Shown here piece after piece: positions 49,928-54,795 of a DNA stretch of 64,000 bases. A model generated the notes under the pieces. It saw only the letters and a program-made list of their open reading frames with translations, did not search any database and had not been told where the DNA came from. Each line of letters starts with the position of its first letter. Positions within the stretch are counted from its first letter, which is position 1. The DNA comes from Synechococcus sp. CBW1108. GTDB lineage: Bacteria; Cyanobacteriota; Cyanobacteriia; PCC-6307; Cyanobiaceae. Position numbers and translations under genes: made by a program. The stretch lies in assembly GCF_015840335.1 (NCBI RefSeq), contig NZ_CP060395.1, positions 434,001 through 498,000 on the forward strand, in the 5' to 3' direction.

Positions 49928-50024
49928 ACTCCCTTTGATCACGCAGCTGCAGCCCAACAAATCCGTAGCTTGAAACCACTGCCTGCATCCCTTGCGTGCT
50001 TGGACGCCGATTTTCCATAACACC

Positions 50025-51071
50025 ATGAGACCCCTGTTTTTCCGCGATCTCAGCATTCCGATCGGCATGGGCGCCTTGGCAGCCACCACCCTGGCTAGCG
50101 CCATTGGTGTAGCTAGCCTCGCCCAGGCTGGGCCCAAAGACGTCAACGTCTACTCCGGGCGCCACTACAACACCGACAAACAGCTCTACGCCGAGTTCAC
50201 CCGTCGCACCGGCATCAGGGTCAATCTGCTGGAAGGAAAGGACGATGAATTGATCCAGCGTCTGCGCAGCGAAGGCAGCAAGAGCAAGGCCGACCTGCTG
50301 GTGCTGGTAGATGCCGCACGGGTCTACCGGGCCCAGGAGCTGGGCTTGTTCCAAACCATCCGCTCCGCCGAACTCAACAAGGACGTGCCTGCCAACCTGC
50401 GGGACCCGGCCGGCCGCTGGTTTGCGCTCACCCGCCGGGCACGGCCGGTGATGGTGAACCCAGCCCTGGTCAATCCCAAGTTGATCCGCACCTACGCCGA
50501 TCTCAGCCGCAGCGAACTCAAGGGCAAGCTCTGCCTGCGCAACCGGGCAAGTGTGTACAACCAATCACTCACAGCCGACGAACTGGTGCGGCGCGGCAAG
50601 CCAGCCACCCAGCAATGGATTAAGGGAATGGTGGCCAACGTCAAAGAGCCGCTGTTCACATCTGACACCCCGATGCTGCGCGCCGTCGGCCTGGGCCAAT
50701 GTGGGGCGGCGATCGCGAACCAGTACTACCTGGCCCGCATGTTGCGGGGTGACAATGGGGCTGATCGCGCAGCGGCCGCCAAGGTGAAGGTGGTGTGGCC
50801 CAATCCCACCCACATCAACATCACCGCCGGGGGTGTGACCAACAGCGCCAGAAACCCTGAAGGTGCACGCAAGCTGCTGGAATTCCTCGCCTCGCCCAGC
50901 TCCGGCGAGGGCTATGCCTCGGCCAACGACGAGTATCCGCTCAAAGGCTGGGGCAACAATCCCACCCTGAAGGCCTTCGGCACGTTCAAGGCGTCATCAG
51001 TCTCGATGGAGCAATTGGGGAGGCGCAACCGCGAGGCGGTGGAGCTGATGGCACAAGCTGGCTGGAAATAG
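50025..51071 (+). CDS. futA: Fe3+ ABC transporter substrate-binding protein
   Basis: This is a periplasmic ferric iron-binding protein, 348 residues from the ATG at 50025. The signal has a twin-arginine-like spacing but only one Arg (MRPLFFRDLSIPIG), ending near SLAQAG. The ligand Tyr cluster typical of FutA/FbpA is visible in VNVYSGRHYNTDKQLY (first), RASVYNQSLTAD, and GAAIANQYYLARML (the Tyr pair, about residue 235). The ending matches the family. It is followed by the permease gene after 24 bp. No ATPase (FutC) gene is in the window. Confidence 0.94.
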   Translation: MRPLFFRDLSIPIGMGALAATTLASAIGVASLAQAGPKDVNVYSGRHYNTDKQLYAEFTRRTGIRVNLLEGKDDELIQRLRSEGSKSKADLLVLVDAARVYRAQELGLFQTIRSAELNKDVPANLRDPAGRWFALTRRARPVMVNPALVNPKLIRTYADLSRSELKGKLCLRNRASVYNQSLTADELVRRGKPATQQWIKGMVANVKEPLFTSDTPMLRAVGLGQCGAAIANQYYLARMLRGDNGADRAAAAKVKVVWPNPTHINITAGGVTNSARNPEGARKLLEFLASPSSGEGYASANDEYPLKGWGNNPTLKAFGTFKASSVSMEQLGRRNREAVELMAQAGWK

Positions 51072-51095
51072 GGCCTGGAGGCGATTTCGATTTTG

Positions 51096-52646
51096 ATGCA
51101 GACGGCAGCTACCAGCCCTGCAGCCGCCAGTGCTCCACCGCCCCGCGCGAGCCGCTGGATTCTGGTGGGCGGGGTTGTGTTGGTGAGCCTGCTGGCCCTG
51201 GCCCCCCTGCTCAGCTTGCTGGGCGGTGCCCTCTTTGGCGAAGGGCCTGGCGGCCTAGCCCTGGGTGTCGATGGGGTTGAGCAGATGCGAGGAACCCTGT
51301 TGCTCGTCGCCGGAGAAGGCTTTCTCGGGGCCATTTTGGGCACGGCCATCGGCTGGCTCACGGCGGTCTGCCGCTTCCCTGGACGCCGCTGGCTGCGCAT
51401 CGCCCAGTTGGTGCCTATGGCCTTTCCGGCCTATCTGCTGGCCGCCAGCCTGATCGACTGGGCCAGTTATCGGGGGCTGCGCATCCACGGCCTCGGCTGG
51501 GCCGTGCTGCTGCTCACCCTGGCCAACTACAGCTATGTCTTCTTGCTCAGCACCGAAAGCTTCTCCGTCAGTGGCCGGCGGCTGCTCGAGGCCAGTCGCA
51601 GCCTGGGTGTGGGGCCCTGGTCCAGCTTCTTTCGGGTGGCGCTACCCATCGCCCTGCCCTCCATCGGCGCTGGTGTGGCCCTCAGCGCCATGGAGGTGGT
51701 GAATGAATTGGGCGCCGTACGCCTGCTGGGGGTGCCCAGCCTCTCGGCCGGAATCCTCGATCGCTGGCAGGTGGATGGCAACCCCCAGGGGGCGGCCCTG
51801 CTCTCCTTGGCGGCGCTGGCGATCGTCGCCCTGTTGATCACAGGCGAGCGGCTGCTCCGCCAGCGCAGCCGCCGCTGGAACCTCGAGGGCCGTGACGCTG
51901 CCGAACACGTTTGGCAGCTGCGGGGCTGGCGGGCCCTGCTGGCCCAGCTGGTGACGGCCCTGCCCCCGCTCTGCGCCCTGGCGATCCCGGTGCTGTGGGT
52001 CCAGCAGGGCTGGCAAGCCCTGGCGGCAGAGTCGATCGGGGAACTCACCCAGCTCGCCAGCCGCAGCCTCGGCTTGGCGCTGCTGGCGACAGGGCTCACC
52101 GGCATGGGCGCGCTGCTGCTGGCCATCTGCCGCCGCTGGAGCCCCCAACCCCTCGTGCAGCAGCTCAGCTTCCTGGCCGGCCTGGGCTACGCCATCCCCG
52201 GCAGCGTGCTGGCCCTGGGCCTGATTGTGCTGGGAGGACCGCTGGGAATTAGTCCGGTGCTGCTGCTGCTGTGGGGCTACGGCGACCGCTTCATGGCCGT
52301 TTCCAAACAGGGGCTTGATGCCGGCCTGGAGCGCATTCCTCCAAGCATCGACGAAACGGCCGCCAGCCTTGGCTGCAACTGGCAGGGGGTGCTCCGCCGC
52401 ATTCACCTACCGCTCCTGAGGGGCCCACTGCTGGTGGGCAGCCTGCTGGTTTTTGTCGATGTGGTGAAGGAACTGCCGATCACGCTGGCCCTGCGTCCCT
52501 TCGACTTCGACACCCTGGCGGTGCGGGTGTTTCAGTACGCCAGCGATGAACGGGTGGGGGCAGCCATGGCCCCGGCGCTACTGATCATGGCGCTTGGCTT
52601 GGTTGCAGCCCTCGCCCTGGTGCCGACGCTTGAGCGGCGGGACTGA
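51096..52646 (+). CDS. futB: Fe3+ ABC transporter permease
   Basis: This is an inner-membrane permease, 516 residues, fused from two six-helix halves as in FutB/FbpB. Coupling loops are LLEASRSLGVGPWSSFFRVA (about residue 165) and DETAASLGCNWQGVLRRIHL (about 420). The final part VVKELPITLALRPFDFDTLA is the conserved end of ferric-iron permeases. The start is ATG 51096; a TTG three bases upstream is less likely. The ATPase needed is elsewhere in the genome. Confidence 0.94.
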   Translation: MQTAATSPAAASAPPPRASRWILVGGVVLVSLLALAPLLSLLGGALFGEGPGGLALGVDGVEQMRGTLLLVAGEGFLGAILGTAIGWLTAVCRFPGRRWLRIAQLVPMAFPAYLLAASLIDWASYRGLRIHGLGWAVLLLTLANYSYVFLLSTESFSVSGRRLLEASRSLGVGPWSSFFRVALPIALPSIGAGVALSAMEVVNELGAVRLLGVPSLSAGILDRWQVDGNPQGAALLSLAALAIVALLITGERLLRQRSRRWNLEGRDAAEHVWQLRGWRALLAQLVTALPPLCALAIPVLWVQQGWQALAAESIGELTQLASRSLGLALLATGLTGMGALLLAICRRWSPQPLVQQLSFLAGLGYAIPGSVLALGLIVLGGPLGISPVLLLLWGYGDRFMAVSKQGLDAGLERIPPSIDETAASLGCNWQGVLRRIHLPLLRGPLLVGSLLVFVDVVKELPITLALRPFDFDTLAVRVFQYASDERVGAAMAPALLIMALGLVAALALVPTLERRD

Positions 52647-52681: not shown

Positions 52682-52822
52682 CTAATCCCGGCCGCAGCGG
52701 CACTTGCCGCCCTTCCACTTCGAGCATTTGCTTTGCTTGCACCCCTTGTGCTTGTCGGCGCTGGGTCCCCGCTTCCCCAGGGGGGGCGGGGTGTCGTGAC
52801 AGGGGCCAAGGGGTGCGGCCAT
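52682..52822 (-). CDS. 46-residue Cys/Lys-rich microprotein
   Basis: This is a 46-residue ORF from ATG 52822 to TAG 52682. The tail DKHKGCKQSKCSKWKGGKCR then CGRD has four Cys, in C-x4-C and C-x-C spacing, and many Lys, like a metallothionein or zinc-knuckle fragment. The N-terminal half is Pro/Gly-rich with one more Cys and a His (GPCHDTPPP). It lies in the 348-bp gap between futB (36 bp from its stop) and the ferritin gene, on the opposite strand. The composition is strongly non-random, but there is no supporting homology I can name. Confidence 0.55.
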   Translation of the reverse strand: MAAPLGPCHDTPPPLGKRGPSADKHKGCKQSKCSKWKGGKCRCGRD

Positions 52823-52994
52823 GCTGGAAACCTCAATCGGAAGCTTGGGATTGGTTCCAGCCTATGGATCGCCCACCCCCCTTGGGCCAGTGTGATCGAT
52901 CCCTGCGGCCCCTGTTACGGGCCGTTGTGCCATTTGTGACGTCAAGCAATCGGGAAGCCATCGCTACTGTCAGGCCAGTTGCAACGCTGAGCCG

Positions 52995-53570
52995 ATGGAG
53001 CAATCCAACATCGCCACCCATGCAGTGGCCACTGGTCCGGCCGGCCGGGCCATGGCCCAACCGATGGACGCCAGCTTGCTGGAGGGATTGCAACAGCACC
53101 TCACCATGGAACGCCAGGCCAGCACGGCCTACTGGGCCATGGCGATCTGGTTTGGAGAACGGGAACTGCGGGGCTTCTGCGAATACCTCAAAGGGGAAGC
53201 CGGTAATGAGCAACAGCATGCCGCCCAGCTGGCCGACTACCTGCTGGCCCGCGGCCAGACCGTATCTCTTGAGGCGTTAGCCGCGCCAATGCAGCAATGG
53301 CGCAATGCCGAAGAGATCTTTGCTGCCATTTTCCAGTTGGAAGCCGACGTCACCAGCTCGTTGCAACAGCTCTACGTCATGGCGGAGCGGGCCTCAGATG
53401 TGCGCTCCACCGTGTTCCTCGATCCAATGGTGCAGGGTCAGATCGCTTCCGAACATGAGGCCGCCCACCTGCTCGGCCGGATCCGTTTTGCCCAGACCAA
53501 CCCTGCAGCCATGCTGGTGATCGATGGCGAACTGAGCGAGGGCAAACATGCCCCAGCTTCTCTGGCCTAA
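52995..53570 (+). CDS. Ferritin
   Basis: This is a 24-mer type non-heme ferritin subunit, 191 residues, for iron storage in the cytosol. The four-helix bundle carries the diiron ligands: a Glu in HLTMERQASTAYWAMAIWF, E-x2-H in LKGEAGNEQQHAAQLADYL, a Glu in FQLEADVTSSLQQL, and a Glu in IASEHEAAHLLGRI. An extra 20-residue N-terminal extension (ATHAVATGPAGRAM) is less conserved. An 8-bp palindrome, TGACGTCA, lies at 52937-52944 upstream. Confidence 0.94.
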   Translation: MEQSNIATHAVATGPAGRAMAQPMDASLLEGLQQHLTMERQASTAYWAMAIWFGERELRGFCEYLKGEAGNEQQHAAQLADYLLARGQTVSLEALAAPMQQWRNAEEIFAAIFQLEADVTSSLQQLYVMAERASDVRSTVFLDPMVQGQIASEHEAAHLLGRIRFAQTNPAAMLVIDGELSEGKHAPASLA

Positions 53571-53571
53571 T

Positions 53572-53862
53572 TCAGCAGGCCAGGGGACGTCGGGTCAGCT
53601 CATCGAGGAAGGCGACGGCAAGATTGTCCCGCACGGCCCTGGTGCGGGACAGCTGCTTGGCGCTGGCCTGGAGCTCTAGGCGGCGACCCTGCAGAAGCTG
53701 GAGCTCCTGCTGCAGGCGGTCCACCAAACCCTCCTCGCGGCAGCGGCCGATGTCACCGACCACCTGCCGGGCGCGGCAACGTAACCGGTCGGCTTCCCGG
53801 CAGAGGCTGGCGACCAGGCTCTCCGATGGTGGGGAGCTACTTGGGGGGATCGGACTGGGCAT
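53572..53862 (-). CDS. Small helical protein next to the Crp-like gene
   Basis: This is a 96-residue protein. After a Pro/Ser-rich start (MPSPIPPSSSPPSESL) it is helical, with LVASLCREADRLRCRARQVV and GLVDRLQQELQLLQGRRLEL. It may form a coiled coil. No family is recognised. It is 8 bp downstream of the Crp-like gene on the same strand and ends within 1 bp of the convergent ferritin gene. Confidence 0.6.
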   Translation of the reverse strand: MPSPIPPSSSPPSESLVASLCREADRLRCRARQVVGDIGRCREEGLVDRLQQELQLLQGRRLELQASAKQLSRTRAVRDNLAVAFLDELTRRPLAC

Positions 53863-53870
53863 GGCAGAAC

Positions 53871-54467
53871 TCAGGCCGCAGCCAGGGGAGCAGTTTCAAT
53901 CAATTCCGGGGCCAGGCGCATGCCGGGTTCACCGACCGGAGCCTCGATCAAGCGGGCCTGACGGATGCGGGAAATCAGGCGGGTGGTCGTGACCCGAGTG
54001 GTGCCGATCAATTCACCGATGCGCTCATGGGTGAGACGGAAGGGCAGATCACACCAACTTCCGCAACGGCGCCCCAAGCGGCGAACCAGCAGCCCGAACA
54101 GGGCATGCAGGCGCTGCTCGGCGCTGCCCAGGTGGCGGATGCGCAAGAGCTGCAGGGTCCATTCGTTCACGGCATCAAACCCTTCACCCTGACGGGGTTC
54201 GGCATCGCTGCGGAAACTCAAGGGGGTGAGGGCCTCGACGCAGACGCCCTCACTGCAGAGGCGATCCGTACAGAGCTGGTCGCCGGCCTGCAGGAAGGCG
54301 AGGGTCATGCCCTCTGTCTCCTCACAGGGGCAATAGACACGGGCCACCCCCTCGAGCACCTCGATGCAGCTGCCACTCGGCCCGCGAGCCGGATCCAGCA
54401 GCACGGTCTGACCTGCCGGCATGCGCACGGCAGGGGCGGGATCGTCGGGAAGGAAGCGAAAACTCAT
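53871..54467 (-). CDS. Crp/Fnr-family regulator, Cys-rich
   Basis: This is a 198-residue regulator from ATG 54467 (TTG at 54473 adds two residues). An N-terminal cNMP-type fold (QTVLLDPARGPSGSCIEVLE, GMTLAFLQAGDQLCTDRLCS) is followed by a dimer helix and a C-terminal HTH: LPFRLTHERIGELIGTTRVT and TTRLISRIRQARLIE. Nine or more Cys (YCPCEE, LCTDRLCSEGVCVEAL, RRCGSWCDL) are unusual and could bind metal or a cluster. It adjoins ferritin and fut genes, so iron control is a possible role. A 17-bp dyad at 54489-54505 lies just upstream. Confidence 0.85.
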   Translation of the reverse strand: MSFRFLPDDPAPAVRMPAGQTVLLDPARGPSGSCIEVLEGVARVYCPCEETEGMTLAFLQAGDQLCTDRLCSEGVCVEALTPLSFRSDAEPRQGEGFDAVNEWTLQLLRIRHLGSAEQRLHALFGLLVRRLGRRCGSWCDLPFRLTHERIGELIGTTRVTTTRLISRIRQARLIEAPVGEPGMRLAPELIETAPLAAA

Positions 54468-54795
54468 GGCCAAAGGGGAGGGGGCCTATTGCGAATGACT
54501 CGCAACCTAAACAAGCCCCCGCCCCTTTTGCAAGCGATTCTCAGTAACAACTGTCAATTGCAACCGGGCTTGGCGCGGGTGACACCCCAGCTCGGCTGCA
54601 CAAAAGCCCCAAAGATGGAGCCGTAACTGGCTAGAGCCAGTCACTGATTGCGTTTTTTGCCAACTTTTACTGCCAGGGCAACATCATGTTGCTGCAGATC
54701 CATGCTTTGTGGCCCTACGCAACAGGCCGCTGCCAAATAGCTTCGCCCTGGTCAAGATATGGTTGTTTCCCACCAATGCTGGGGAGTACTTATTC
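54468..54795. other. 328-bp divergent regulatory region
   Basis: The region separates the Crp-like gene from the secreted pair at 54796. It holds the dyad at 54489-54505 and a further GAGAATCG element (reverse of CGATTCTC at 54535-54542) that resembles half of the Zur/Fur-type boxes. No coding frame is convincing here; the frame open from 54709 lacks a signal peptide until the ATG at 54796. Confidence 0.45.
54489..54505. promoter_or_regulatory. Perfect dyad, candidate operator for the Crp-like regulator
   Basis: TTGCGA-ATGAC-TCGCAA is a perfect 6-bp inverted repeat with a 5-bp spacer, 22 bp upstream of the Crp-like start. Position and symmetry suit autoregulation. Confidence 0.55.

Follow-up and report, generated by a model that had tools for sequence, protein, structure and literature searches.

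A basic, cysteine-rich microprotein is kept in picocyanobacteria of lakes and oceans mostly where ferritin is present, and ferritin is its partner. The gene came to light in a 64-kb stretch of Synechococcus DNA (the window), where it lies beside a ferritin gene. Among 400 genomes of the window's family, 264 carry both genes, 16 carry the microprotein without ferritin, 20 ferritin without the microprotein, and 100 neither (phi of 0.78; Fisher p of 7e-56, in statistics that ignore kinship). The same comparison among 251 good genomes, defined by completeness of at least 90% and contamination of at most 5%, gave 198 genomes with both genes, 6 with the microprotein only, 5 with ferritin only, and 42 with neither, and the phi of 0.86 in this set indicates that incomplete genomes do not create the co-occurrence. 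In the first 91 genomes, the corresponding counts were 57, 2, 3, and 29; two of the three genomes in the ferritin-only group are incomplete, one of which (G034) has a contig that stops 43 bases past the ferritin match. Completeness of at least 90% is reached by 6 of the 16 microprotein-only genomes and by 5 of the 20 ferritin-only genomes, with genus g56 holding 4 of the latter 5. In two genomes of about 65% completeness (G056 and G069), the microprotein gene adjoins a Crp gene and a ferritin match is absent. Physical linkage by itself could yield part of the co-occurrence. Three genomes of genus g35 (G284, G334, and G352) have 5 to 8 ferritin matches each, three of those in G284 being equal in score.

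The coding frame and its conservation

As the original prediction had claimed, a 46-codon frame extends from an ATG at 52822 to a stop ending at 52682 (minus strand), opposite to futB, which ends before it in window numbering (52646, +), and to ferritin, which starts beyond it (52995, +) (Table 1). Its translation, MAAPLGPCHDTPPPLGKRGPSADKHKGCKQSKCSKWKGGKCRCGRD, contains the C-x4-C and C-x-C pairs described there (C28-x4-C33 and C41-x-C43) with W36-K-G-G in between, which gives an overall spacing of C-x4-C-x7-C-x-C; a fifth Cys (C8) is unconserved in an alignment of 18 members. The basic character also holds, with a pI of 9.7 and a net charge of +7 to +14 in 76 homologues. The iron genes, previously taken as a setting only, are confirmed as neighbors, but the association with ferritin turns out to be the main finding. 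The neighboring ferritin matches the solved structures 7pf9, 6gka, and 5ouw with E values of about 1e-55.

Table 1. Positions of the microprotein gene, its neighbors, and associated sequence elements (window coordinates, except for the locus in genome G258)
Feature	Position	Strand	Basis
Microprotein gene, 46 codons plus stop	52682..52822	-	Frame calls, homologues, pN/pS
Conserved core C28-x4-C33-S-x-W-K-G-G-x-C41-x-C43	52694..52741	-	Invariant columns of alignment
GAGG, Shine-Dalgarno-like, 8 nt 5′ of the microprotein ATG	52831..52834	-	Sequence
CATAGGCT, putative -10-like element of the microprotein promoter	52859..52866	-	Kept in 4 same-lineage loci aligned (L001, L005, L006, L035)
GTTGTGCCATT, intergenic block between both start codons	52924..52934	.	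4 aligned loci agree in 10 of 11 columns
FutA-like solute-binding protein	49992..51071	+	Pfam SBP families
FutB-like ABC permease, flank of the block	51093..52646	+	Pfam PF00528
Ferritin, SynFtn type, divergently transcribed from the microprotein	52995..53570	+	Pfam PF00210; best solved relatives 7pf9, 6gka, 5ouw
H96, 96-aa frame, no family match above cut-off (Pfam, NCBIfam)	53572..53862	-	
Crp-family regulator, other flank	53871..54473	-	Pfam PF13545
Decayed microprotein locus L126	G258:C1:1616500-1623500		

Within the window, the pattern C-x4-C-x7-C-x-C occurs once in all six frames, and among 91 ATG frames of 40 to 60 aa the microprotein alone combines at least 10 K/R with at least 5 Cys. 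Conservation is a stronger argument than this rarity for a real gene rather than a chance frame. A one-sequence search of 149 relatives gave clear matches across the window's family, including four same-genus genomes having the microprotein, at 100, 76, 76, and 56% identity. A profile built from 18 members found the microprotein in 280 of the 400 genomes of this family (picocyanobacteria), spanning 49 of 59 genera, and in 204 of the 251 good genomes, mostly as one copy per genome. In a class-wide sample, 56 of 388 genomes matched, all 56 from the window's family; a weak match in G018 contains a stop and was left out of the loci read. A scan of named genomes yielded 57 loci, in records named Synechococcus, Cyanobium, Prochlorococcus, and Vulcanococcus and under a few other names. 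Spread beyond the family was rejected, the outside matches of the one-sequence search having E values of 0.005 or worse and being treated as chance, as was a phage origin, since none of 15 pattern-matching stretches in viral contigs encodes a microprotein relative.

The pN/pS ratio ranged from 0 to 0.62 over 24 microprotein pairs, was below 0.5 in 23 of them, and fell between 0.23 and 0.37 in five pairs among close relatives of the window, indicating that the gene is under purifying selection. Invariant columns of the 18-member alignment are M1, G6, K24, K26, C28, K32, C33, S34, W36, K37, G38, G39, C41, and C43. The N-terminal half is variable, which points to roughly the final 20 residues as the functional part. 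A set of 76 distinct microproteins, with start codons set by a scripted rule, has lengths of 29 to 51 aa and contains four Cys in 46 cases, five in 27, and six in 3. All 76 have the spacing C-x4-C-x7-C-x-C, although the extraction pattern fixed the later gaps and allowed 3 to 5 residues in the first, and the four Cys are partly imposed by this pattern and by the seed of the named-genome scan. The first pattern fits 29 of 30 family loci from the one-sequence search (L026 has T in place of S), and 56 of the 57 named loci fit as well, L076 being the exception. Thirteen weak or unusual matches were read free of the pattern, and 12 of them keep the four Cys (L129, L132, and L133 to L142), with one Gly replaced by Arg in L134 and the Lys after Trp replaced by Arg in L141; the remaining one, in G258, is decayed.

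Five genomes have a shortened copy (L129, L133, L136, L138, and L140), about 27 residues long and exemplified by MPDKKKKKKCKKKKCSAWKGGKCICHG, that consists of little beyond the conserved core. In the four of these genomes for which the distance was measured (G070, G042, G150, and G074), the short copy lies away from ferritin; the fifth genome is G157. G150 also holds a longer copy (L139), which is beside its own ferritin.

The idea of a hidden gene is borne out by the conservation in 280 of 400 family genomes and by the signature of purifying selection. Stop codons or lost Cys in relatives had been named as the observation that would refute the prediction, and frame and Cys are generally kept; the exceptions are L076, G258, which is decayed and has no ferritin match, and L137, one of two copies in G074, which has no start codon in frame. 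In L076 (match 857-937, in a metagenome-derived genome), one of the four Cys is replaced, the stretch reading KGGTGRC. The notion that the frame is no gene and arose between genes by chance could draw on its small size and its lack of a match to any known family. Nevertheless, conservation in 49 of 59 genera, purifying selection, the fixed Cys spacing, and a Shine-Dalgarno-like sequence stand against it, and we reject it as next to impossible on account of conservation and selection. On the strength of these comparisons, the 46-codon frame is a conserved coding gene of a kind that ordinary gene finding can miss.

Arrangement with ferritin and joint absence

Ferritin lies within 1.1 kb of the microprotein in 48 of 59 genomes having the microprotein, at a distance of 40 to 1037 bases (median, 237.5), and these close pairs are divergent in 42 cases, convergent in 5, and on the same strand in 1. 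In the named loci, ferritin adjoins the microprotein in 38 of 57, head to head in 30 and tail to tail in 8. The eight tail-to-tail ferritins are 34 to 47% identical to that of the window, four of them at 34 to 37%, the range of the family's second ferritin type; thus, the pairing recurs in another arrangement. Several of the 19 named loci without an adjoining ferritin start at a contig end. In G076 and G086, each assembled as one contig, the distance between the two genes is 1.6 Mb and 59 kb or more, respectively, ferritin and the short-form microprotein are far apart in G070, and in Cyanobium-like loci the microprotein still sits between Crp and FutB while ferritin is gone from the spot. A link by position only is weakened by the distant pairs of G076 and G086 and by the tail-to-tail pairing with other ferritins.

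In four genomes of the window's genus (G004, G005, G007, and G012), exactly the microprotein, ferritin, and H96 are missing and the order of the flanks is kept, FutA-FutB bordering the gap at one end and Crp-H202-H331-H277-SUMF at the other; only 36 to 60 bases lie between the matches to Crp and FutB. A tie to the Crp regulator instead of ferritin is disfavored: of 11 same-genus genomes that lack the microprotein-ferritin pair, 9 have Crp; the microprotein therefore follows ferritin, not Crp. G258 is assembled as one contig and gave no match to ferritin; in its decayed microprotein gene, a stop is read at the Trp codon and the two Gly are lost. H96 shares the strand of the Crp regulator, follows it downstream, and has its end 1 base away from that of ferritin. 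Absent together with ferritin and the microprotein in the four same-genus genomes, it is a second candidate ferritin-linked protein without a known family.

Promoter elements and Fur-box-like sites

Fur-box-like sites, taken as 15-mers with at least 10 of 14 matches to a palindromic Fur-box consensus, occur in 22 of 68 non-redundant microprotein upstream regions, against 3.5 expected and a maximum of 7 in 200 shuffles. Upstream of all 76 microproteins there are 24 such sites, 19 of them positioned at -41 to -35 from the ATG. Several are directly 3′ of a TATAAT-like element, a place where a repressor would block transcription. Among named records, the sites are found in Prochlorococcus, Vulcanococcus, and some Synechococcus or Cyanobium. 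In a subset of the named loci from which proteins already seen in the other genomes were left out, the microprotein did not exceed its neighbors, the rates being 6 of 39 for the microprotein, 5 of 30 for Crp, and 4 of 37 for ferritin; other genes gave 0 of 11 (FutA), 0 of 17 (FutB), 0 of 16 (H96), 0 of 14 (Fur/Zur-like gene), and 2 of 20 (cobW). The sites of control genes are unaligned in position, none reaching 11 of 14. Upstream of the microprotein in the window's lineage (L001, L005, L006, and L035), no Fur-box-like site was found. The comparison thus indicates a Fur-box-like site over the microprotein promoter in part of the family only, the window's lineage being excepted.

In that lineage, CATAGGCT is probably the -10-like element of the microprotein promoter, and the GTTGTGCCATT block is a possible candidate site for a regulator. 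Elsewhere in the window, a 15-mer at 35425-35439 matches the consensus at 12 of 14 positions and is the sole one reaching at least 11. Fur-box-like sites also precede the Crp regulator in some relatives (L057, L067, L072, and L075).

Candidate roles of the microprotein

Searches of Pfam returned no family for the window microprotein (E up to 1) or for the 18 members (E up to 0.1), NCBIfam gave no match to either, and PHROGs gave none to the two proteins searched. A profile search against solved structures returned 9cca (two sequences, one entry) at an E value of 1.1 over a short Lys/Cys stretch, which was taken as chance. In the open-access literature, no ferritin-linked microprotein of picocyanobacteria was found by title or start of abstract among the matches listed, and a text search for the motif string and a ferritin locus tag returned nothing.

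Bfd (bacterioferritin-associated ferredoxin), one of the closest known systems, has its [2Fe-2S] ligands in the spacing C-x-C-x31-35-C-x2-C, spread over about 35 residues. In contrast, the microproteins have C-x4-C-x7-C-x-C, with the Cys within 16 residues, and at 46 aa the microprotein of the window is shorter than Bfd. Neither the window protein nor the 18 members match the Bfd profile PF04324 (Fer2_BFD). We do not file the microprotein as Bfd because it fails both the profile and the Cys spacing; it lies outside that family and may work like Bfd. The likeness is that of a small Cys protein encoded beside a ferritin-type gene (within 1.1 kb in 48 of 59 genomes and adjoining in 38 of 57 named loci), with a proposed role for stored iron; in the part of the family that has Fur-box-like sites, a link to Fur is possible. 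A further difference is the partner, a SynFtn-type or other ferritin to which heme binding is not attributed.

We tentatively favor, at somewhat under an even chance, a role as a ferritin partner that works like Bfd and helps to mobilize stored iron. Upon iron shortage, the basic four-Cys microprotein would be made. With a pI of 9.7 versus 4.9 for ferritin, it would dock on the acidic exterior of the ferritin cage, where a Cys-bound iron or iron-sulfur center would help to reduce or carry off stored iron. In other bacteria Bfd serves bacterioferritin in this way; here the task would fall to a smaller protein unrelated to Bfd. We infer both metal binding and ferritin docking. Metal binding, originally proposed along with nucleic-acid binding as an alternative, gains plausibility from the constant spacing of the four retained Cys; for nucleic-acid binding, the sole basis is the positive charge. 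The AlphaFold model of the microprotein is poor (mean pLDDT of 65), and with only a possible, low-confidence hairpin at residues 36 to 41 of the core it cannot support a docking or redox mechanism. Of 55 family genomes searched for PF04324, the Bfd domain, 54 gave no match and one gave a match within a 928-aa frame, and the Bfd role therefore looks vacant.

As described in passages of PMC7762939 and PMC12363616, Bfd is a small [2Fe-2S] protein whose electrons, passed to bacterioferritin, let stored iron out. Passages of the former add that Bfd adjoins bfr in many genomes yet is differentially expressed (PMC7762939), and passages of the latter that down-regulation of bfd accompanies Fur activity (PMC12363616). 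SynFtn-type ferritin is no heme bacterioferritin, so the Bfd electron path is not given here. The window's ferritin is of the same type as SynFtn of Synechococcus CC9311 (5ouw and related entries), which is portrayed in sections of PMC7762939 and PMC8743623 as unusual and perhaps stress-related; a partner protein is proposed here, whereas those sections name none for CC9311 SynFtn. Metatranscriptomes, as summarized in part of PMC9723758, have transcripts of CC9311-like ferritins higher under low iron and those of another group higher under high iron. A simple picture of release versus storage may therefore fail, and ferritin may have more than one role.

The co-occurrence and adjacency with ferritin, as well as the divergent arrangement, would equally be expected of a loading or iron-buffering chaperone that hands Cys-bound Fe2+ to ferritin or protects ferritin in oxidative stress, serving storage and not release, and the window's lineage, without a Fur-box-like site, fits such a protein. 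However, where that site is present it lies over the microprotein promoter and suggests expression at iron shortage, and a site made of Cys alone would be atypical for the delivery of loosely bound Fe2+, which leaves the chaperone unlikely in our estimation. We give similarly low credence to a zinc-knuckle-like peptide that would sense metal or iron, bind nucleic acid, and regulate the ferritin/futAB locus or iron mRNAs. The net charge of +7 to +14 in 76 sequences, the short C-x-C-G turn, the low-confidence predicted hairpin at residues 36 to 41, and the nearby Crp regulator are in keeping with such a peptide, but Pfam and NCBIfam gave no match to a zinc-ribbon or nucleic-acid-binding family, and FutB and Crp are present in four genomes without the pair, so that the microprotein follows ferritin and not the locus.

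SmtA, the cyanobacterial metallothionein, is small and Cys-rich, with C-x-C. The microprotein resembles it in these respects and differs in having fewer Cys, in being very basic, in lacking a Pfam match, and in its tie to ferritin. A small metallothionein-like copper or zinc buffer, sharing the locus with a stress-induced ferritin by chance, would account for the C-x-C motif and would suit the up-regulation of SynFtn by copper reported in a section of PMC7762939. Against it are the conserved Cys, only four in number (46 of the 76 microproteins have four in total), the absence of a Pfam match, and the link to ferritin, unexpected for a copper buffer; we deem this role improbable. A review of small cyanobacterial proteins contains neither of the terms ferritin and iron in the portion covered by a term search (PMC7760959).

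The Bfd-like ferritin partner extends to a broader proposal, which we advance with more caution: picocyanobacteria may use, instead of Bfd, an unrelated minimal protein, roughly 27 to 51 residues long and in essence a single loop with four Cys, to unlock ferritin iron. Such a protein would have evolved independently and would come and go with the ferritin gene, and the ferritin that it served would be no heme bacterioferritin. To our knowledge, the mechanism by which iron is returned from non-heme bacterial ferritins is not settled. Picocyanobacteria are among the most abundant phototrophs and often live in iron-limited places. If the proposal is true, a dedicated ferritin partner, easily missed and small enough for chemical synthesis, would open the release of iron from SynFtn-type ferritins to direct tests, and would show that iron genes of picocyanobacteria can go overlooked through their shortness.
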